From Trichodelitschia bisporula (Eukaryota > Ascomycota > Dothideomycetes > Phaeotrichales > Phaeotrichaceae), in NCBI GenBank assembly GCA_010356995.1, contig ML996690.1:747420-811419 (forward strand): a DNA stretch of 64,000 bases, read 5' to 3'. The position numbers and the translations under genes were made by a program. The notes under the pieces were generated by a model that saw only the letters and a program-made list of their open reading frames with translations, was not told the origin of the DNA and searched no databases. Every line of letters begins with the position of its first letter. Within the stretch, counting starts at the first letter, position 1. This document shows, in pieces, positions 23,867 to 56,638 of the stretch.

Positions 23867-26214
23867 ATGTTGCTCGTTGGTCGTTCATTTCATCTGGTGG
23901 CGATTGCCGTTTGTGTTTATCTTTCCTTGATATTTGTCTTTGGAACATCGAAGACTACACATGGTATTGATTATAGGGACAGCAGTCAGGAGCAGCATGG
24001 ACCAGTCGAGGAGATTCTCACATTGGAAGAGGCGGCCAATCTTTACACAGCCTCGAGTAGTGAAAGACCACTAGTGGCAGTGACCTCGACACATTGGGAG
24101 GTTGTGACGAAGACCGTAGAGCAAGCTGCGCAGGAGTCGACTTCAGCTGCAGCGTCGACAACTTCAACAGCAACGGAATCAGATGCCCCCCAGCAGACAG
24201 GAGTCCAGCTGGATGAATATCTCAAAGATCTGTTGAACTGGCAACGCCCGTTGGCAAGCGATGGCCATTGGCCGCGCTACGAGGACTACGCCGACAGAGA
24301 TTATGATCCTAACAGATGGGAAGCGTTCAAACTGTAATAGCTCTCTGTCTATTCGTAATGTCAGCTAATGAAGTCAGTGAGGACGGGTACTACAAGTCAG
24401 GCACGAAACGGCTACCATCAGATGAAGCCGATGCATTGAAGATCGACTCGCCATACCCGGATTACCGCTCCGAACAATGGAAACGCCGCTGGAAAGGCGA
24501 CTTCGTCCCCTGTGAAGGACCAAGAGGCATCGAACTGACAGACAGCATCGAGGATTCCGTCCGAGTGTACCCCGGCGTCCCGCCCAACTTCCCAAAGCCC
24601 CTCGTCGGCTCCTCCGCAGCCATTGGCCTAGCCGACAACATCTGCGTCGACCGACTGCAGCGCTACGGCCCGTACGGGTACAACCCGCTCCTCCGCTTCC
24701 CCATCAGCATCGTCGACTGGGACAACGTCGACTGGGGCGAGCTGCAGAACAAATGCCTAGGCCGGAATAAGGAGCGCTTTGCGCCCCACGCTCGCGTCCG
24801 CCCCGCTATGAAGCCCGACTTCGCGAACCAGGACCCGGTGGACGAGACCTTGCACGAGGAGATCCGTCGCGAGGAGCCGGACCCGCCTGAGGGCGAGCCG
24901 CAGTACGAGCCTCGCACCGCTGTGCTCATCCGTACTTGGGAGGGCTACGATTACTCGCAGAACGATGTGCTAGCCATTCGTGCCATGGTCTCGGAGCTGG
25001 CGCTGCGTACCGGCGGCACGTACCAAGTGTTCCTGTTCGTCAACATTAAGGACCGCGGGATGCCGATCCATACCTCGCCCGCGGCCTACGACCATATGCT
25101 CGCGAAAACGGTGCCGCGCGAATTGCGCTCCATCGCCGTGCTGTGGAACGAGGACATGGTGCAGCGGATGTACCCGCTTGTCGGCGATTGGCAGGTGTAC
25201 TGGCACCAGTACATGCCGGTGCAGTGGTTCGCGGAGACACATCCACAGTTCGATTACGTGTGGAACTGGGAGGTCGATGTGCGCTCTATCGGGAACCACT
25301 TCCATCTGCTCGACCGCCTAGGCGACTTTGCGGCGAAGCAGCCGCGCAAATATCTGTGGGAGCGCAATGCGCGCTTCTTCATCCCCTCACACCACGGGGA
25401 CGACTTTTCGGCCTTTGCCAAAGCAAGCAACGCCATTATCGCCGAATCCGCAGCGGCAGGCAACATCACCCCCGTTTGGGGTCCACAGCCCTTTTCCCCC
25501 TTGACCACCCCCCTCGGTCCGACTCCTCCCACCGCAGAATCCGCAGACGACTTCACCTGGGGCGTCGGCGAAGAAGCCGACTTCATAACCCTCCTCCCAA
25601 TGTGGGACCCCATCCATACATTTTGGACCATGAAGAACAAAGTCTGGAACTTCAGTCCTGGCATCGCGCCCTCCTTCACTGCCGAGCACCCAACCGACGA
25701 CGGCTTCTACCATCCGTATCTAGACACCATGCCACGGCGCGGGTTCATCAACACCGTGACACGGCTCAGCCGGCGCCTGCTCCGCGCCATGCACGCCGAG
25801 AATCGGGCCGGGCGCACCACACAGGCGGAAATGTGGCCCAGCACTGCGGCCCTCCATCATGGACTCAAGGCTGTGTACGCGCCGCACCCAGTGTACAGTG
25901 GGCATACGTGGCCGGGTCGATATGCGGATTTGGTGTTTAATGCGGATGGGGGGATTGGGGGGCGCTGGGGGCAAGAGAGGGATAGTATTTATAACCAGGA
26001 CCGTGAGGTTAATTTTAGGGATTGGAGTTGGTATTATCATGCGGGTTTCCCACGGGTGTTGTATCGCCGCTGGATGGGGTGGAGGGCGAGGGATGCGGCT
26101 GGGGAGTTTGGGGGGACGGAGTGGGAGGAGGGGGAACGCGGGCCTGGGGGGCGGATGTGCCTTCCGCCGATGCTGTTGCATCCGGTTAAGAGGGGGGATT
26201 TGGAGCTGGTGTAG
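23867..26214 (+). CDS. DUF3405 family type II membrane protein
   Basis: Exons 23867-24333 and 24378-26214 give 767 residues; the intron is GTAATA..GTCAG with a GCTAAT branch. A single hydrophobic segment near the N-terminus (FHLVAIAVCVYLSLIFVFG) precedes a Ser/Thr-rich stem, the topology of Golgi lumenal enzymes. The large C-terminal part (residues about 300-740) has the DUF3405 signature blocks: AVLIRTWEGYDYSQNDVLAIRAM, WQVYWHQYMPVQWFAETHPQFDYVWNWEVDVR, a tryptophan-rich GVGEEADFITLLPMWDP, and NFRDWSWYYHAGFPRVLYRRWMGW near the end. Function of the family is not established to my knowledge. The stem-plus-globular layout and the EVD within WNWEVD suggest a glycosyltransferase-like role, but that is inference. 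Confidence 0.85.
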
Positions 26215-30848: not shown

Positions 30849-33800
30849 ACAGAAGCCAGCTTTCGTCGTCGTCGCCAGCGCCCGCGCCCTCTCCCTCTCG
30901 TAAGTCCACTTACCTACCTCCTACCCTATCCCAGAATGCAAAACTCCACTGCCACCTTGTTGTCCCTTCGCCGTGGATCCTATTGTTGCTCTGCCAATAA
31001 TCACTCGTTGTGCCCCCCTATGAGTTGGCACATGCTAACGTCGTCGCGCGGACCCTTCAGCCTCCTCCACCTCAATTACCTCCCCTCCTTCCGCCTCTCA
31101 AACTCCTACTCCTCCTTCCGACTCTCGTACCGAGTCGCATGAAAAAGTTCAGCGGGCTCCCATCCGGTCCCCGAGCCCTCCCAGGTCCCGCTCGTCACCC
31201 CAGCCGCGTCCTGATCACCAGAAAATGAGCAGTGGTGCTGGAGATCATACCAACAACAATGAACACGGGGACAACGCCTCCCAACAACCACAGCAACCAC
31301 GCCCACCCATGCCTTCATCATCAGCTTCGGCGCCGCTCGGACGACTGCCGCGTCTGCTTCCCCACGATCTTTCGCAGTACACGGACACCTCGCTCCCGAT
31401 AGCCGCCCTTCCCCATTCCAGCACCTCTCTTTCCGAACTCGCCCACCTCATCCGCCTCCAAAAGTACCAAGAGCAACGCCGGGCCCACTCGCGTGTCCGG
31501 TTACACCGATGGCTCGTATCCGCCGCCCTTTCGTCACGCCTCCTTCACTGCGGCGAGCTCGCCTATCGCACCCTCATTGAGAACTTTCGCTCCGACGACC
31601 GCAAAAGCTTTGCCACCCTGTACAATGCCATCCACGATGTGCGCAGTTCCTGCGACGCCACCCGGCGGTACGCTCTCTTGGAGCCCGACATGGAGACGGG
31701 CAAGACGAGGCTCTCGTCCAAGGCTGAGACCACCAACTTCTCAACCTTCATGCATGAGCTGCCTTCTCAGGTTCGCAATCCTCTGATCGAATTTGTGAGT
31801 GAGATTCGCACGAATCCCGATTTCTTGGCTGCTCGCATTGCCAGTCTGTCGCAGGCCGAGTTCTTCGCCCTCACCGGCTTCCGACCTCCCTTGGACCCGC
31901 AAGAGTCCGTCATGGCCTTGAGCAAAAATGCACCCATGAAGAAGCCTGTGTCCTCCGTTCCCAGCCCTGTTGAGCGTCTTCTTTCCTTTCAGCGTCACGA
32001 TCCCGTGTCCGCCCTCATCTACACTGTCTTTGCCAGCTCCTCCGGGCCAGATTCAGCTGAAGATTTGCGCCGCACCGATGCCTGGGCCACTACTTGCGCG
32101 CGCCTCATAACTGAGGCGAAGCCCGGCAGCACAAGACTGATCGGCAGCGTGCTCGACGCTTGGGCCGGTATGCGGGATTGGCCTGCCAAGGTCAACATTG
32201 AGCTGTTCCTCATGCAGGTTCTCCAGGAGGGCCAGTTCATCCTAGAAAAGGCCGACACTCAGCCGTCGAAGACTGGTGCCCTCGGCGACATGGTTGAGGC
32301 TACTGCCAAGCAGTTGGAGTACGCTGCAGAGGAGTTTTTCGACCGGTCTGTCAAGAAGCTGTTTGACGTGATTGACGATGAGCCCAGTGCTGGTGGCATG
32401 CCCGAGGGCGTGTTGGAGATTGGAAGCGCAATTCTGAAGAAGCTCAGCCACGCCAAAAAGCTGCGTCATGCGGCCGAAATCGTCATAATCCACCGCTGGT
32501 TTTTCTCGTCCTTTTTGCTTAGTGCACTCATCTTTCCAGAGGTATGGTCTTCACTCACCCGAAAGTGCACTTGCTAACGAAGACTAGAGCCATGGCATAA
32601 TGTCTGGCTATCATATCTCCAAGCCAGCTCGCGAGCTGATCCTCAAGGAGATCGCTCAGCGAGCCCAGAGACAGGTTCTTGGCATGGAGTACAACTTGTA
32701 AGTTTGCTTGGTCAACCATTGATTCAACGGAGTCTAACCGACTGCAGGAAGCAAACGGTGCAGATCATGCCCGAAGTCAAGAATCACATGGAGAATCTTC
32801 TTCAGCGTTTCAGGTTTCCGCGGTCCGCGACCCGGCCTGTCTTGTTGCCGGCGAAGGCCATCACCTCTCCGAGAGAGACGGTTGAGGTTCAGCCCTTTTT
32901 GGTTATCTGCCCCTCTGATTTGGTGACCCTCGTCAACTCACTCTTCCCGGAACGCCGGCCGTCATCGGAGCAGGGCGAGAAGAGCTTCTCCACCAGAGGC
33001 TTGGCCTCATCCGCTTCCTCAATGTCCGGGGTGTCAATCCCTTTCCATCTCAACTCAACCCCAGGCAATGGAAGCTCTGTACTCAGCAAGAGTGTGTCGT
33101 CAATGACGAGCGACACCACATCACGTGAGCCGCTGCTCGATCCCACTGACAAGGCAGACGACTCTGGTGATGGTCTTAACATTCAAGACCACAACGTTCC
33201 CTTCCGGATCGTGCCGACGGAGGATTGCGGTCGCCGTTTGCGGATGGCCTGCTCTGAGATGTCCAGGATCCTTGGCCAAGAGGCAACTGCCGGCTCGTGC
33301 CATCCGTGTGCCGAGAGGTGGGCGGTGCTCTACGTGTCTCCGGACGGCCAGAAGCTGAAGACCCGGATGGGCAAGGATGCCGAGGATGAGGATGAGCAAG
33401 AAGAGGATTCGCCGGACACCGACAGTGATGAAGACGGTCAGGGCTCCCAGATGGACCTTGCGTCGGACTACCACCAGGTCAAGGAGTCCATTGTCAAGCT
33501 GCTCCAGGAGTATGAACTTCCGAAGAATCTTGCTCCCGAGAACGAGTCGAAGCAGTTCAGCAACCGCACATCAACCCATCGCGGCCGCGGGGGTATGCGG
33601 AAGGACCGGATCACCACCATGCGTATAGATGAGGGAGCCTCCAACAGCCAGTTGTCGAGCCTCATTACTCATCAGCGTGGAGCCGGCTCTCGCCTTCGGC
33701 CTGGACAGCACGTCCGTAGCAACAGCGCCGGTGACCTGGAGGAGCCAAAGAAAGAGCGACCCGCGGATCTTGTTGTGATGCTTGAGGCTGCGTTTGTCCA

Positions 33801-36282
33801 GTGCCACAGCCGTAATGAGTTTGTCAATGCGCATCACTGGCACAAGACCCTCGAGCAGTTGCGCAAGATCACGTCGCCCTCTTTGACTCGGGATGGATAC
33901 GCACCGCTTCTCAACCTCTTTGCCCGCGGACCCCGGGATTCATTGAACAAGTCGTTCAGTGCCATCGAGGAGTTTGAGGCGTGGTTTGCCTGGCTCAAGC
34001 AGTCACAGGAGCGCCACGATGCCAACATCGAGGACATGCTCGTTGAGCTGAAGCATCTCCGCGACAAGATGTGGTACAAGACGGCCGTCTTGACGTCTGC
34101 TGGCTACGAAGAAGCCAAGAATGTTGCCGTCGCGCTCAAGCTAATGGCAGCGCCGACTAAGACATCAGATGGTAAGCCCATCAACCACAATCGGGGTCGC
34201 AACCTTTCCAAGGCGACCTCCAACTTCCTGCTGAAGCCGGAGGCTCAAACACTGGACCTGATGGCCGCGCCGGTTGAAAATGCTGGCCCGAACAAGTTGG
34301 TTGACGAGCAGGCCGAGCTGACATTGCGATGGTTGCAATCCTACGGGATTGAGAACTTTTGCAAAGGCGAGGAACGAATTCACCGCTTCTGTCTTGAAGT
34401 CGACAAGTGCGTCAACAAGCTGGTTGGTGATGGCGTCCTTGATGGTCCTGTGCTCTGGTCGAGCGAACTCTACCGCAGAGACAAGGATATCTTGGACAGT
34501 GGGCGGCAAAAGGGCGACCTTTGGCTGACTGGGGTTGGTACGCTGAGCATTGCGAGCGACGAGGAGTATGAGACACAGCCGGGCCGTACCCTTCCCAGGA
34601 GTCTTGACTTGGTCCAGCCTATGCCGTCAAGCCTGCGCAACGGTACACAGCGTGCCCCGATGCACAGCATTGATGCTGCGGTCAACAGCAACAATCGGCC
34701 CGTCAACCTGATGGACTCTCAGGATTATTTCGGCGTCGCCAACCCCGCGCTGTCAATCGACTCGACTGTTACTTTCTGGTCGCCGTTCCAGGCGCAGGCC
34801 CAGTCCCCGTCGGAGAAGTCGGGCACCATCAGGCCGATGGCCAACCCCTCGGCCCGCGGACCTGTGATGCTGAAGAGCTCAGCCACCGTCAATGACGACA
34901 AGCGCAGGTTCCTCCTCGACCTGAAGCAGACGCTAACTGGCCTGCTGCTCAGTGATCTCGGCACTCTTGTTTTCAACGGCGGCACTGAGACTGACGTCTG
35001 GTTCTCTAGCGATCTTGGCGAGGAGTGCATCCAGCGCAGCGAGGCCGAGGAACGCAGGCGGAAGCAGAAGCTGCTCCGCAAGAAGAGCATGAAGACGCTG
35101 AAAAGCTCGGCCCGGGAGCAGCGACAGAATGCCCTCGAGACGATTGGCCGCTCTGAGCGGGGCGGTCCGGCGGCCCCGGTAGCTACGCTTCAGAATGCTG
35201 ATGTCCTCCACCACTCAGCCGGCGAAATGAGCGATACTCCTGCCAATCTGCGCGGCGATCGCCTCTCCGCCGCCAAGAAGGCTGGGCTCCTAGAGTTCCC
35301 GTACAACGTCGCCTTCCGACGTCTGCTCCGCAAGTTCGCAACTCACCCCAACCCCTTCTCCAAACTTCACGCGCTATACGAACTCGAACTCCTCATCATC
35401 GCATCCCTTTCTTCAAAGTCTGCACGTTCCTACGGTGCCCGGATTGATCCGCTCCCCACTGTTCCGCAGTCGCCCAGCCTTGGCTCCATTCCTGAGCTGA
35501 GCTCACGTGAAGCCGCTGTCCATACTCCGCAGGCGCAGAACCTGCGGGAAGCCATCGCCAACGTGACGGAGCGGCGCTCGCACAGCATGAACACGCAAAA
35601 CAACGGACGCGGGTCCCCATCACCTCATCCCAACGACGGCCGGCGCTCGCCCAACGGTCCGCCAAGCACTGACATGATTGTCGAGGTGCTGCAGAGCCTG
35701 TTCCGCGATGCCGAGATCCGTCCCAAGACACTGTTCCGCGACTTGCAGTACATCGCCGCATTCGTTCCCGCCAGCATACTGGACAAGACGCCGCGCGGGA
35801 AGGCCTTCTGGGACGCTGGGCTCGTGGCTCTGTGGCTGAAGCAGGAAAGCGTCCGCTACATGATCGAGATTGCCGACGGTATTGTTGCCCAGAATACGGA
35901 GAGCCGGTTTGCGAGCACCAGCCAGCAGGGCGCGACGCCGACGCTGAGCTCCGACAGCGTGGCGCGGTGGTCCATGTCGGATGCCGCGCGCATGTACATC
36001 ATCACGGCCAAGGAGTGCGACCCGGTGGCGGAACGCGAGTTGGCCATCTTTTACCTCACCCATCCGGATCTGCTGCCTCGCACGCTGCTGCCGCTGTCGA
36101 AGCCGCGCGAGATTTTCAAGGACTCGCTGCTGAACCGCGACCGCAAGAAGGAGGATCCCAACCGCAGCGATCCGATGACGATGTGCGTTGCGCAGCACTG
36201 GATGGAGATGAGCAAGAAGGGTGGCGACGAGCTGGCCACCACGTATCTGCGCGGGAAAGACGAGATGGAGCGCATCCCTTAG
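30845..36282 (+). CDS. large conserved fungal protein with a possible RasGAP-like segment
   Basis: Exons 30845-30899, 31061-32541, 32588-32697 and 32748-36282 give 1726 residues; each junction keeps phase and each intron has a CTAAC branch. A Ser/Pro-rich N-terminus leads to a helical region (SELAHLIRLQKYQEQRRAHSRVRLHRWL). Around residues 495-550 the stretch FFSSFLLSALIFPE..SHGIMSGYHISKPARELIL resembles the FLRF.NPAI..P block of Ras GTPase-activating proteins, but the match is loose and the arginine pattern is not kept. Later parts include FLVICPSDLVTLVNSLFPER, an acidic stretch (EDEDEQEEDSPDTDSDEDGQ), a basic coiled stretch (SEAEERRRKQKLLRKKSMK) and a C-terminal DPVAERELAIFYLTHPDLLP that looks like a Sel1-type helix pair. 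There is no signal peptide. It is probably a cytoplasmic signalling or scaffold protein. Gene model firm, function uncertain. Confidence 0.75.
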
Positions 36283-45240: not shown

Positions 45241-47141
45241 TCACCCAGACTCCTCCTCACCACGCCCCCTAGTCGACCCAAGTTCTGACTCCGACCCAAG
45301 CAACGTTCCCCCCTCGCCCATCGCAGCCCCAAACCCCCACCCGCCCTCCGCCTGAGGCCCAAAATCTACGCGAACCCCGACAATCCCATGCCGCTCATCG
45401 AACATATCCTCGATGTGCGCGACCGGGCGCCACGCCCGGTCTTCGAACAGTGCCGCCACAAGCGCCGGAATGCCCAGTCGGGCTTGCAGCTCGCCGACAT
45501 CGTGGTGCAGGGCTCGGGCCGCCTTGACCGCTAGCACGAGGCCCAGGGCGACGAAGAGCATGTTTGCGATAAGGTGTGCGGAGAGGGGCGCGATGGGCAC
45601 GCGGGCCACGAGGTGCGGCTCGCGGACTTGGTATTCAATGACCGGGACGGGTTTGAAGGACTGGATGGCCATGGCGAGGAAGATGCGCGAAAAGCTGAGG
45701 CTCAAGGCAGTGAGGTTGAAGGTTTGAGCAGTATGGTCAATGATCGGATAGCTATAGGGTGGGATCATGGCTGTGGTGATGGCTTGGAAGTTGGCGACAG
45801 TGGCAAACTGCTGGAATTGGCTGCTGCGTTTGATCATGTTGGAGACGGAGAGGTTGCTGATGGTTGGGGTGAAGCGAGTAATCCTATTGTCGACGGAGGT
45901 GTATTCTAGGTCGTACACGGATGTACTGCAGTTTCCAGGTTCGAGTACCATGAATACTGTAAAGACGTGGACCAATAATGCAAAGTAGAAGGGATTGCTG
46001 TCAAGGGTGCCAACAGTGCTGTTTTGGGTCATACTTGAATTGGTGTAAAAGAACATCTGATAGAGAGGGTTGTACATATCTTCCAAACTGATTAGGAGGT
46101 CTAAGCAGGACCAGGCATCTGTTCCGTCATTCAATTTCATCACCGAGCGGGGGCATCGGTCTTCAAGTAGTGTACAGCTAGTCTTTACAGCAAAAGAACG
46201 AGCAGTGTAGTCGAGCGAGTTCAGTCCTGGGTCCTGGGGAGGGCCGAGGTATGTGTAGGTTTCAGAGTCTAGATCGTCAGTATGAGTCTTGATCCGAGTG
46301 GTTTTGGAGGTGTCGTCCAGTGCGTCCTGGGTGGGAGTGTATTCCGAATGGTTAAATATGCAGTCGTTCCCCAGCGTCGCGCACGCGGGGGTCAGCGCAA
46401 AACTGTACGATGGAGGGGTGTCCGGGTTGCGTAGTGTGGTAAGGTTTATTAGGACGGTCTCCGTTGCGAAGTGAAGCCAGGAATCCGTCAGCAGCACCAG
46501 GAAACTAATCTCGTTAGCCACGCTTCGATGTTCGGCGCAGCACACCTGAGAAGCAGGCCCAGGGCCAAAGTAGTAGTCATTGTCTTCAAGGCTTTGCTTC
46601 GTTTCTCGCGCTTTCGTCCCCAGCGCAGGGTGTAGCTCAACCACTGCCACAACGAGCCGAGCCCGCTGCTGGCCAATATGCGCAGAACGAGAGAGAGTTC
46701 ATACGGCGTTAGCAGTTCGGCTGTGTCTCCTGATTCTGCAGCATGCAAAATGCTACGAGCGACGGGGTACGATATCAGGGTGACGATGAAGCCAACGAGA
46801 AGGGGTGCGAGTGTGCTTGACCACGAGGCCAGGGTGATGAAGATGGTGGCGCTGAAGTCCAGGTAGATAACGCCCGAATCTTTGTGCGTTGTATTAAACG
46901 CAAGATTTGGTGTGACAAATTGGTGGGGGTTGACGCGGTAGTGAAAGACCAGGAAGAGGATGAAGTAGGAGAGAAGCATCATTGGAACGGTTAAGGCGAT
47001 AAGGGCCCAGGAGATATCCCTTTGGCGGCCGCGGATGCGTCGTCCATCGGCGTTTTCTGGGCTCGCGGCACCAAGTCTATTCGAGAGCTGGCGGGTTGTT
47101 GGGCTTTCGAACACTTCCGGTTGCTTCGTTGGGGCATCCAT
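45241..47141 (-). CDS. multi-pass membrane protein of unknown function
   Basis: Exons 47141-46546 and 46504-45241 give 619 residues; the intron is GTGTGC..GATTAG with a GCTAAC branch, and the join lies inside a membrane helix (LALGLLLSFLVLL). Membrane segments: about residues 42-66 (SWALIALTVPMMLLSYFILF), 95-125 (FSATIFITLASWSSTLAPLL), 190-212, and one near residue 525 (LIANMLFVALGLVLAV). Between the third and fourth lies a loop of about 300 residues with several N-glycosylation sites (NLTT, NHSE, NSSM, NSTV, NCST, NLSV) and paired cysteines, probably extracellular. Both ends would then be cytoplasmic. It resembles fungal transmembrane proteins without assigned function; a receptor or cell-wall sensor role is only a guess. 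Confidence 0.8.
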
Positions 47142-48252
47142 TGCGACGGGGCCTTCGGAAGATTGAACAGCTTGGGCGGGAATCAGGCTGGGGAGTTCGA
47201 TTTAAAAAGTGTGGAGGGGGGGCAAGAAACCAAACTCCCAGTCTGCCTTGCCAGTTGGTGCTTCCGGCCAAGTGGGGAATTGGCATGCGATGCAGCTAAT
47301 ACGGATGTACTGAACACTCAGTCCATTCGCAGTGGGGGCTGAGGTTGCTCTGGTGAAGGCCGGGTGTCCAATAACGAGGTTGCAAACCATGCGCCGAGAT
47401 ATCTTTGCAGGAAACGATGGGACTCGCATCAGGCTGGCTATTTTGGCATGCTTCGATAAGGCACTTCAATCTCGAAGAACTCAACTGCTGCGATGCCCCT
47501 TGTTCGAGGCTGAGACTTGGAACCATGCTGCTCCTCTCAGTGAAGGATGCTACCAATATCTCGCGCAAGTCTCCATCACTCCATAATCGTCAAGCCATAC
47601 CCGCTGATAGCCGCTCCCGGCTATGGAACGGAGTGGAGCATCTGCCCTATCGTACTACCGTAAGGTGCAGGACGGCGTCTAGGCGGCGGGATAGCGGGAG
47701 CGTTATTCTAACCTCACCTCTGCTTGAACCGATCGTGGTTTCATCGCTACGGATGTATGGGGCGGAAGTGCTTCTCTTGCATTTTTATGGTTGCCGCGTT
47801 GACTGCCGAGCAGATTAAAGAGGGTACATGAAGTGTTGCAGAACGAAGTGCTGTTGTACGTTTGTAAAGAAGTGAGACGAAGAAGAGAACGGAGGTCGGA
47901 AGCAAACAGACCCTAAAATATAGCCCTTCCTTCATGGTTCGCTGCATCATTCTTGGCGTCTTGGCACAACCCCCTTTCCATCAATGCAACCTGTTCGCAC
48001 CATCTCTTTCGATTGGGACTTCAGTCAGAATAGTCCAAGTCGCGACTTCGGCAACGGCACTGGAGAGCTTAGGTGAATCATAATGGCTCAAGTGTTGCAC
48101 TTCAAGTTCTTCATCCTTCTTCACATTCATAGCTTAGGACATCTATCTAGTGCCTCAATCATCACGACTCCAGCCATATCATCGTCCCCCCTTTCCAAAC
48201 CCCTAACCCACAACTCCCCGCCCACCGAAACCCCAAACTCCCATCCCCACAC
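47142..48252. other. intergenic region, no gene recognised
   Basis: About 1.1 kb between two minus-strand genes. The frame at 47405-47818 plus has no recognisable features. The promoter of the membrane-protein gene and the MCM5 3' end lie here. Confidence 0.55.
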
Positions 48253-53154: not shown

Positions 53155-56100
53155 ATGGTCATCTCATCCATGATGAGGGTCATCACCCTCCTCCTCCTCC
53201 TCGTTGTCACCACTGCAGCCCGAATGCTCGCTCTGCATAACTACTCGGAGTCGATACCCAACAACCAGACCCACCCATACTGCGAGATGCCCTATCACTC
53301 TCTCGACCTCAGCCGCATCGTAGCCATGTGCGGCATAACGAAAAACCAATGCGGGCAGTGTGTGTCCATCTGCGCCGGTGTGTCCTCCCCCCTTCCCTTT
53401 GCCCCATCCCCTCAAATCCCATCCATCAAACCATATCCCATCAAACCCATCACCACCTCCTAACTCCACATCAGTAAGCTGTCTCCCCTACTTCGTAATG
53501 GACACTTGCTACCTCCCCCCAACCTCCTTCATTCTCCCGCACCTCTCCGGTCCATCCATCCTCGAAACCCCCCGTCTCGGCTTCTACCGCGGAGTGAACA
53601 TAACCCCCATCGCCCCCGCCTACTGCCGCAAGGCCTGGACGGGTGAAATGAACGCCCCCGAAACCCTCACCGCCAACATCCAAGACGCATGGCAACTCAA
53701 GCTCTTCCGCGTCATGCTCGCCCTGCCCGAACCCAAGGATCTGCCCCCGCTGTGGCAGCCGCCGAGCAGGATGTATAAGCAGACGCAAGAGCCGAAGGGC
53801 CACCTGAAGGACGCACTCGATGCTTGGAAAAGCTGGATTGCGAAGAAGGGGAATGCTGTCCGGCGCTTCGTACGCCGCCTGCTGTACGGCCCGGGCCAAG
53901 CCGACGAGACGACAAACCTCCCCGGTGCCGAACACCCTGACCACTCGCCACTGCCCACGCCTCCGCCGGCTAAAGCCGCAGCCAAAGCCGACGCAGCCAA
54001 AGACAGCAACTGGCGCACCCGCCCCCTATTCCCTTTCCCCCTCGGCGCCCACGCGGCACCCGTCGAGCCGCCGCAGCCCCCCGCCGAGGTCAACACAGAT
54101 GAAGACGACAAAACCCCCCTCGAGCGTCCCGTCCTCCCGCTGAACTTCGGGCACGGGCCGCGGATCGATGCCATGGTGCTCGAGGCGCTGCAGCGCCTGG
54201 ACAAGCGGGTGAATAATGTTGCGACTTCGACTAGCGGTGGTGGATCCGAGGCCGAGGCCACCGGGACGCAAAAGGCTCTCCCCGTCCCGTTCGACTTCTC
54301 CGAGCGCGACCCCCCCAAGCACGGCGCGGAAGGCGGTGAGGGACTCGAGGCCGAAGCTACCAGGACGAACCCAGCGATCCCCGTCCCGTTCGACTTTTCC
54401 GAGCGCGAACCCCCCAAGCACGTCGCGGAAGGCGGTGAGCGGCATTTGCTGCATTGGCCTGGGCACCCGAAGAAGGGGTGGATGCCGAAGTTTGGAGTCC
54501 ATATTGAGAAAGACGGTGGACATGAAGACAAGCCTAGCGAGGCCAATGGAGTCGAAGCCGGAGCCACCGACGCCGGGGCTAGCGCCGTCAACGGAGTTGA
54601 AGCCGGAGCGGTCACAGTGTGCGAACAATACTGCAAGCGCCAGATGCTCGACCTCGCTACCCGCGCCGAGCGAGGCCACGGCCCGCGCGTCCCGGTGTCG
54701 GCGGATGAAGTTCTTGCCGCACTGCAGGAGCACCCCGGGCCCGAGCGCGCCCACGGCATAGCTCCCGTGGACAGCGTTGACGTCGTCGACGCTGAAGCCC
54801 ACGACATCGGTAACGCACCCCGCGGCGTCGCCCTCATCGACTTCGAAGCCACGAAAGCAAACTGGGTCTGCAACGAAGCCAACATCGCCGCCGCCGCCAC
54901 CGACGACGCAGACCACAAAGTAGACTGCGAGCGCCTCATGCCCGCCCTCGCCACGCTGCAACGACACTCAGGCAGCAGCTCCAATCCCGCGCACCTCGTA
55001 CCCCGCGGCGTCAACGTCATCGACTTCGAAGCCACGAAAGCGAACTGGGTGTGCAACGAAGCCAACATCGAAGCCGCCGCCAAGGACCCAGACCACAAAG
55101 TAGACTGCGAGCGCCTCATGCCCGCCCTTGCCGCGCTAAGAGAGCACACCGACACCAACCCCAATCCCGCGCACCTCGTACCCCGCCAATTTGGCGGGGA
55201 ACTGGACTCCTCCGGTTGGATCCCCAATGGGATGATCAATGAAGAGCACGGGGGGTTCGATTCGACGGGCTGGATTGCGCATGAGCTGGCTAGTGATAAT
55301 CCCCCGGGGCCTGATGTGTTCGGGTTGATGCCGAAGGGCAAAGGGGGAGATAGAATTAGAGAGGATATGGAGTGGGATGGGGGCGCGGCGGGACGGACGT
55401 TGAAGCTTGCCGGCGAGATCGCTAAAGCGGATGGAGAGGGGAGTAAGGAAGAGAAGGACGCAGGGAGTGTCGAGGGCGCCATTTCAGAGAGGCGGAACTG
55501 GGTGAAGCGCTCCGCAGCGGCATATGCCCCATGGGGATATGGCCCGCATGTGGGTCCCGGAATAGGGCATGGGCATGGGCATTGGCAGGGCGGGTATGCT
55601 GGAAAGGGTGATTGGGGAAAAGGCGGGTATGGTGGACAGGGTAATTGGGGTGAGGGTTATGGGGGTCATGGGGAGCACAGTGGGGAGTGGGATCACGGTG
55701 AAGGTGCTGTTCAGCCTGCCGCGCCTGCCGCTCATGAAGGCGCGCCTGCTCCTGCTCCTGCGCCTGCTCCAGAAGCCGCTCCTGCCCCTGCTCCCGCTCC
55801 TGCTCCCGTCCCCGAAGCTTCCCAACATCCCGAAGCCGCGCCTGCCCCAGCCCCCGCTCCCGAGGCACCTGAACAGCCCACCGCCCCCGCCCCGGAAGCC
55901 CCGGCACAACCTGCTCCGCCTGCGCCCGAAGTAACCGTCAACGCCGAGGCCACTGCCAATGCCGAAGCCGAAGCACTTCAGCAACCGCCACCCGAAGCAC
56001 CGCAGCAACCGCCACCAGAAGCATCCGCCAACGCTGAGGCATCTGCTAGCGCCGAAGCTCCTGCCCCGGCGCCCCCTGCGCCCGAGAAAACAGCCAACGC

Positions 56101-56539
56101 TGAAGCGGGCGCTGCTCCCGCGCCTGCGTCCGACGTTCCCGGTGCGAGCGCTAGTGCATGGGCAAGCGCAAGCGCGGGCGTGTGGGAAAGTGCGAGTGCA
56201 TCTGCCAGTGCATGTGAGTCGGTATGTGCATCTGCCAGTGCGTGGGCGTCGGCATCTGCCTCCGCCTCTGCGAGTGCACGGGCATCTGCGACGTCGACGA
56301 CGCGGGCCAGTCCCAGTTCCAGTGCCAGCGCTTCGGCGCGGAGCTCGCAGATCTGGACTGAGAGCATTGCAGCACATAGGGCGATGCCGCCTGCGAAGAC
56401 GATGGGATTTAACGGGGTGGCTATGGGGGTTCTCCTCTGTTTCTCTTTCTTTGCTCTGATGTTTGGGTATGGGCATGTCGTGTTTTCGTGGTATATTTGG
56501 TTGGGGGCGTGCTTGCTGAACGGCTTGGTTTCTTCGTAG
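53155..56539 (+). CDS. secreted mosaic repeat protein, unknown function
   Basis: Exons 53155-53377 and 53475-56539 give 1095 residues. A signal peptide (MMRVITLLLLLVVTTAARM) opens it. A cysteine-rich N-terminal domain follows (CEMPYHS, VAMCGITKNQCGQCVSICAVSCLPYFVMDTC). Next come a 33-residue tandem repeat with PVPFDFSER (333-398), a 60/61-residue tandem repeat with FEATKANWVCNEAN and DHKVDCERLMPAL (525-645), GWI repeats, and a Lys-Arg pair near residue 753 (NWVKR-SAAAY), a candidate Kex2 site. Then follow a Gly/His/Tyr/Trp-rich block with GHGHGHW (about 770-820), a long Pro/Ala/Glu block, a Ser/Ala/Trp block with ASASA runs, and a C-terminal membrane helix (VAMGVLLCFSFFALMFGYG). I recognise no family. 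It converges on the racemase gene with 99 bp between the stops. It could be a cell-surface or secreted, proteolytically processed protein. Confidence 0.72.
54248..54445 (+). repeat. 33-residue tandem repeat in the secreted protein, 2 copies
   Basis: EAEATGTQKALPVPFDFSER then EAEATRTNPAIPVPFDFSER, each followed by (D/E)PPKH.AEGGE. The second starts exactly 99 nt after the first (54248 and 54347). Confidence 0.9.
54824..55186 (+). repeat. 60/61-residue tandem repeat in the secreted protein, 2 copies
   Basis: Units begin at 54824 (GVALIDFEATKANWVCNEAN) and 55007 (GVNVIDFEATKANWVCNEAN). Both end NPAHLVPR and share DHKVDCERLMPALA. Each has two cysteines about 18-19 residues apart. Long stretches are nearly identical also at DNA level, pointing to recent duplication or gene conversion. 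Confidence 0.92.
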
Positions 56540-56638
56540 CGTGCTTTCTGGACTTTGGAGCCTGTTAGTGTTTGGTATACTTGATATATGTACACCCGCC
56601 TAGCGGGATAGACCTTAATAAATAATCCACACACTCTT

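Follow-up and report, generated by a model that had tools for sequence, protein, structure and literature searches.

The window, i.e., the whole 64,000-nucleotide stretch of DNA analysed here, corresponds to C4:747420-811419 of the genome of Trichodelitschia bisporula (Dothideomycetes, Phaeotrichales), which comprises 25.65 Mb in 30 contigs. It contains a two-exon gene (Table 1) whose exons, 53155-53377 and 53475-56539, give exactly 1095 residues when joined. The spliced product is 100% identical over its full length to a public hypothetical protein of T. bisporula, EJ06DRAFT_315857, so the start, the single intron and the length given in the original prediction match the public model; this identifier was absent from the literature searched. 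The intron has GT...AG ends and a CTAAC just upstream of its acceptor. Beyond the two adjoining genes listed in Table 1, an MCM5 gene is located farther upstream and a dynamin-family gene farther downstream (both by Pfam), and no functional cluster is obvious among these neighbours.

Table 1. Features of the mosaic gene and the genes adjoining it.
Feature	Position in the window	Strand	Details
Whole gene	53155-56539	+	Two exons, 1095 codons + stop; spliced translation, identity to EJ06DRAFT_315857
Residues 1-22, signal-peptide-like hydrophobic start	53155-53220	+	19-residue hydropathy up to 2.34
Residues 23-140, eight-cysteine head, split by the intron	53221-53671	+	Spliced translation; sequons 29, 37
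Single intron	53378-53474	+	97 nt, GTGTGT...CTAAC...CAG; implied by the identical public model
Repeat A, two copies (331-363, 364-396)	54242-54439	+	33 residues each, 26/33 identical
Repeat B, two copies (525-585, 586-645)	54824-55186	+	61 and 60 residues, 47/61 columns identical
Residues 753-820, Gly/His/Trp/Tyr block	55508-55711	+	Translation, composition
Residues 821-962, Ala/Pro/Glu block	55712-56137	+	52 Ala, 41 Pro, 17 Glu of 142
Residues 963-1043, Ser/Ala block	56138-56380	+	Ser+Thr 38%
Residues 1044-1095, hydrophobic C-terminus	56381-56536	+	Hydropathy; putative anchor (membrane helix/hairpin) or GPI-type tail
Nitronate monooxygenase gene (PF03060)	Adjoins the mosaic gene on one side		Pfam 1e-36
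CoA-transferase family III gene (PF02515)	Adjoins the mosaic gene on the other side	Opposite	Pfam 6.9e-52

The product is a mosaic of dissimilar parts. The signal-type start that had been described is hydrophobic by hydropathy, and the cysteine-rich head, the Gly/His/Trp, Pro/Ala/Glu and Ser/Ala blocks and the GHGHGHW motif were all located in the translation. The cysteines of the head are at residues 43, 59, 66, 69, 73, 77, 86, and 125, and both N-glycosylation sequons found by pattern lie in this region. GHGHGHW occurs once (residues 772-778, window 55565-55585), within a Gly-rich block whose translation contains recurring GGYxGxGxWG-like stretches; this single putative motif could bind metal ions. 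By an entropy cut-off, 511 of the 1095 residues are of low complexity. The share of Ser+Thr, highest in the Ser/Ala block, is 3-15% in the remaining parts after the signal (7-8% around repeats A and B). The predicted C-terminal membrane helix stands as far as hydrophobicity is concerned (hydropathy exceeds 1.4 in the 19-residue windows that begin at 1050-1062 and 1075-1076), but with about 45 residues the hydrophobic part exceeds one simple helix. A possible 73-nt GT...AG intron at 56467-56539 ends on the annotated stop and would give another hydrophobic tail and a protein of 1092 residues.

Both tandem repeats are present, although each has only two copies, and the “60-residue unit” described earlier consists of 61 and 60 residues. 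The best 25-residue self-match within residues 321-760 scored 118, compared to a maximum of 49 in 200 shuffles. In repeat B, two cysteines are kept in each copy and both copies end in LVPR, as had been claimed, while APR precedes the first copy. The differences between copies of repeats A and B fall on codon positions 1, 2 and 3 in 14, 10 and 15 cases, without a third-position bias. By two methods, the estimates of dN and dS, respectively, were 0.148/0.240 and 0.145/0.275 for repeat A, and 0.134/0.190 and 0.109/0.544 for repeat B. The duplications look recent or under weak constraint. Residues 441-522 were considered as a further, degenerate copy of repeat B but were unconvincing, with 15 of 83 aligned columns identical.

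The absence of a recognisable family held across Pfam, NCBIfam, PDB and protein-database searches; the head and the 60-residue unit, each run against Pfam and PDB, gave no family. With E up to 1, neither residues 1-830 nor the exon 2 frame gave any Pfam family. When exon 2 was scanned in eight pieces at E up to 10, there were only below-cut-off matches (the strongest being ETR1_N, 0.041, within the hydrophobic tail); positions 55751-56338 were covered by the whole exon 2 scan alone (E up to 1). Neither CFEM nor hydrophobin was matched in Pfam, whether with residues 1-830 (E up to 1) or with the head piece from exon 2 (E up to 10), and NCBIfam had no match at E up to 1. Among PDB sequences, even E up to 10 gave no match to the 139-residue piece of the head, and the best E values were only 0.41 for exon 2 and 0.84 for repeat B. 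The protein-database searches returned only EJ06DRAFT_315857 itself for the whole protein and for residues 24-330, and nothing for a 355-residue repeat piece. Since these searches took their words from a portion of the query and scored 7995, 6748 and 7993 candidates inside fixed length limits, the lack of relatives means none within the reach set by word sharing, length and candidates scored. The T. bisporula genome was searched with exon 2 except for 55535-56131 (the whole Pro/Ala/Glu block and most of the Gly/His/Trp block). The head part of exon 2, the middle and repeat B each found themselves only; the C-terminal piece found, besides itself, three weak matches (E 0.26-1.34, one with an internal stop). 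A viral source was rejected for the piece 53474-54175 (3 pattern matches in viral_contigs, 0 confirmed) and a bacterial one for 54500-55189 (92 pattern matches in genome_contigs, 0 confirmed), each in a narrow search with six short peptide patterns.

The open frame itself is unusually long: exon 2 holds 1020 stop-free codons, while the longest forward-strand run in 300 second-order Markov simulations of this exon was 614 codons (the longest run per simulation averaged 227). For codon usage, we used a table built from 2468 codons in nine Pfam-backed stretches of the window, which ranked the true frame first in all nine left-out stretches with scores from 0.019 to 0.225. Residues 1-330 scored 0.157, the best of six frames and inside this control range. 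Residues 331-660 also fell inside it (0.114) but were outscored by one antisense frame (0.142); for the protein as a whole, an antisense frame was slightly better than the sense one (0.070 vs. 0.052). The sense frame was the best of six in 6 of the 14 segments, residues 241-522 and 701-752 being among those where it was not. In the four segments of residues 753-1043, the scores were from -0.20 to -0.05 and GC3 was 0.46-0.57, with other frames higher; all four lay under the minimum among 49 control windows of 80 codons each (score -0.02, GC3 0.59), which were scored with a table that includes those same windows. At residues 1044-1095 the sense frame was again the best of six (0.04), with GC3 of 0.67. 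Thus, codon usage provides good evidence for the head, fair evidence for the middle and none for the simple blocks 753-1043; usage up to about residue 645 resembles that of the neighbouring genes, and the blocks 753-1043 differ from them. An antisense ORF of 620 residues inside the gene (53620-55482, minus strand) gave nothing noteworthy in Pfam (best E 0.67), and we take it as a by-product of GC-rich coding sequence.

One can suggest from these scores that the gene model is partly wrong, so that the head to repeat B would be coding and the 3' third misframed or otherwise spliced. The negative sense scores of residues 753-1043, the small number of segments where the sense frame leads, an antisense frame that is likewise stop-free over residues 761-1095 and the possible intron at 56467-56539, which would swap the tail end, all point this way. 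They are opposed by the public model, which uses the same frame, by the recovered codon usage of the C-terminus and by a strict intron scan of 55001-56560 (donor GT[AG]NG[TG], acceptor [CT]AG, branch point [CT]T[AG]A[CT]), which listed no intron and passed over the 56467 site. The simple-sequence arrays also bear on this question. Eight short, partly overlapping arrays were compared unit to unit by codon position, and in the Pro/Ala hexamer array (55745-55806) 11 of the 15 differences between successive units fell on third positions, as expected if the sense frame is constrained there (binomial P 0.0018, uncorrected, for one of eight arrays and with neighbouring comparisons that are not independent). 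Longer-period readings of the Pro/Ala stretch gave 9/13 and 9/14, and a neighbouring reading 3/4. In the four non-overlapping arrays besides this one (2/4, 0/2, 3/7 and 4/7, together 9/20), the bias is not clear, so the array differences support the sense frame in the Pro/Ala block only. Altogether, we regard a partly wrong gene model as improbable.

The fate of the product can also be read in different ways. One reading is a KEP or pheromone-like precursor from which Kex2 would release secreted peptides at KR or RR, perhaps with trimming by Ste13 after KR 752-753. It agrees with the single PF01483 (P_proprotein) match in the genome, probably a Kex2-type convertase, and with the sequence SAAAYAP after KR 752-753, where SA-AA-YA fits the XA dipeptide signature (PMC6339444). 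Nevertheless, the 6 KR/RR sites are no significant excess over a shuffle mean of 3.3 (a fraction of 0.12 of 2000 shuffles reach 6), and all four dibasic types together number 9 against 6.4 (0.18 of shuffles). Cuts at KR/RR after residue 22 would give pieces of 183, 4, 110, 144, 285, 5, and 342 residues, and neither KR nor RR lies between the repeat copies. Both published KEP surveys (PMC6339444, PMC7329392) ask for at least three repeats between dibasic sites (KR, RR, KK, RK), while the longer repeats here have two copies each. The KEP definition includes a signal peptide and the Le Marquer pipeline also excludes predicted membrane-located proteins; hydropathy suggests a signal at the start of the mosaic protein together with a C-terminal hydrophobic segment. 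The proposed resemblance to Kex2 precursors was not supported by the dibasic sites and the repeat numbers, and we consider such processing very unlikely. Its best remnant is KR 752-753 with SAAAYAP, which could be a lone processing site with a Ste13-like XA run. The LVPR that closes each copy of repeat B is a single-arginine end, and duplicates of a sequence would be expected to end alike. Kex2 is able to cut after Pro-Arg in a killer toxin. In the literature searched for such cutting, the Pro-Arg passages of the one matching paper concern a serpin. Exact DNA patterns for the two alpha pheromone types, two-cysteine and PYGxPxG, had no matches in the genome and hence none in this gene, diverged or intron-split motifs being beyond their reach; the backward-read control matched once each time, and PYGxPxG, widened at one position, follows PMC6339444. 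An ustiloxin-type RiPP precursor was rejected as well: among the 11 UstYa (PF11807, DUF3328) matches listed for the genome, a lower bound, none is on contig C4. These matches, all above cut-off, lie on contigs C2, C6, C9, C11, C12, C16, and C20, and ustiloxin-type RiPP clusters may be present there. Another suggestion is a secreted matrix or spore-coat protein, released from the cell, whose Gly/His/Trp and Ser/Ala blocks would aggregate or bind metal. The composition of the blocks and the repeated GGYxGxGxWG-like stretches agree with it, although the hydrophobic C-terminus favours anchoring and GHGHGHW is single and short; we find this rather unlikely.

The combination of a signal-type start, a cysteine head, a long low-complexity part and a hydrophobic end suggests a surface-held wall protein. 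We give about an even chance to a lineage-restricted T. bisporula gene for a wall or adhesin-type protein that carries its head on a spacer stalk. A disulphide-rich head would be presented outward on a long, mostly disordered stalk made of the repeats and the Gly/His/Trp, Pro/Ala/Glu and Ser/Ala blocks, while the hydrophobic tail would hold the protein at the surface. Its function would then be similar to that of fungal wall or adhesin-type proteins: a small binding or capping head plus a spacer. From hydropathy we infer secretion, and surface holding is plausible. Expansion of short GC-rich DNA repeats probably made the stalk longer, as the codon usage of residues 753-1043 is unlike that of neighbouring genes; compared with the head, it suggests an older head and a later-grown stalk, although amino-acid bias may contribute. 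Against the surface-held reading, Ser and Thr are abundant in residues 963-1043 only, unlike the long Ser/Thr-rich stalks of typical adhesins. The head without a known domain, the antisense frame that leads over the whole protein, and the lack of a clear third-position bias in repeats A and B and in the arrays besides Pro/Ala also count against it. The usual GPI signal is shorter than this hydrophobic tail. There is a slim chance that an ordinary-codon cysteine head was fused to expanded GC-rich blocks in a surface-matrix protein of the Trichodelitschia lineage, with silk-like Gly-rich and Ser/Ala segments self-assembling on the cell or spore surface.

The surface-held wall protein may be compared with known systems. 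A “typical” adhesin has 600-2500 residues, a secretion signal, an N-terminal domain, tandem repeats, a stalk and a C-terminal signal (PMC6023273). The mosaic protein is like the GPI-anchored fungal adhesins of that source in its size, secretion-type start, N-terminal domain, repeats, low-complexity stalk and hydrophobic C-terminus; by hydropathy, its two ends are candidates for the secretion and GPI-addition signals. It differs in that its stalk is mostly Pro/Ala/Glu and Gly rather than Ser/Thr, which is scarce at repeats A and B where adhesins have Ser/Thr-rich repeats, and the GPI signal is putative. Unlike many, though not all, of these adhesins, its head has no binding domain recognised in Pfam or PDB, and no sequence similarity to them was detected. 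Because the order of parts is matched and the Ser/Thr content is not, we propose only that it may function in the manner of wall or adhesin-type proteins, and do not assign it to that class. With Blastomyces Bad-1 (WI-1) it shares a secretion-type start and repeats with two cysteines and tryptophan. However, Bad-1 has 30-40 repeats of 24 residues with four Trp each and a C-terminal chitin-binding domain (PMC6023273), whereas the mosaic protein shows no Pfam domain and has two copies of 60-61 residues, with a single Trp in each. KEPs, a group that takes in alpha pheromones and ustiloxin-type RiPP precursors, also have a signal-like start and internal repeats, but the repeats of the mosaic protein are in fewer than three copies and not bounded by dibasic sites, and none of the UstYa matches listed is on the contig.

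Lineage-specific genes are pervasive, and in fungi homology-detection failure is enough to account for many of them (PMC7660931). The mosaic gene is ordinary in kind and no new mechanism is shown. If the surface reading is true, it adds one more lineage-specific wall protein, in which an ordinary head and a late-grown stalk are separable by codon usage within one gene. It would gain greater weight if the head represents a new fold or if the stalk assembles.

Other frames of the window deserve mention. For a 1234-codon stop-free frame at 32578-36279 (plus strand), Pfam gave no family at E up to 0.001. At 45244-47201 (minus strand), two overlapping stop-free stretches of 485 and 237 codons are possibly exons of one gene; a Pfam scan of the longer one found nothing (E up to 0.001). 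The frame at 24313-26211 (plus strand) encodes a protein with a strong match (1.8e-174) to DUF3405, a family whose function is unknown.
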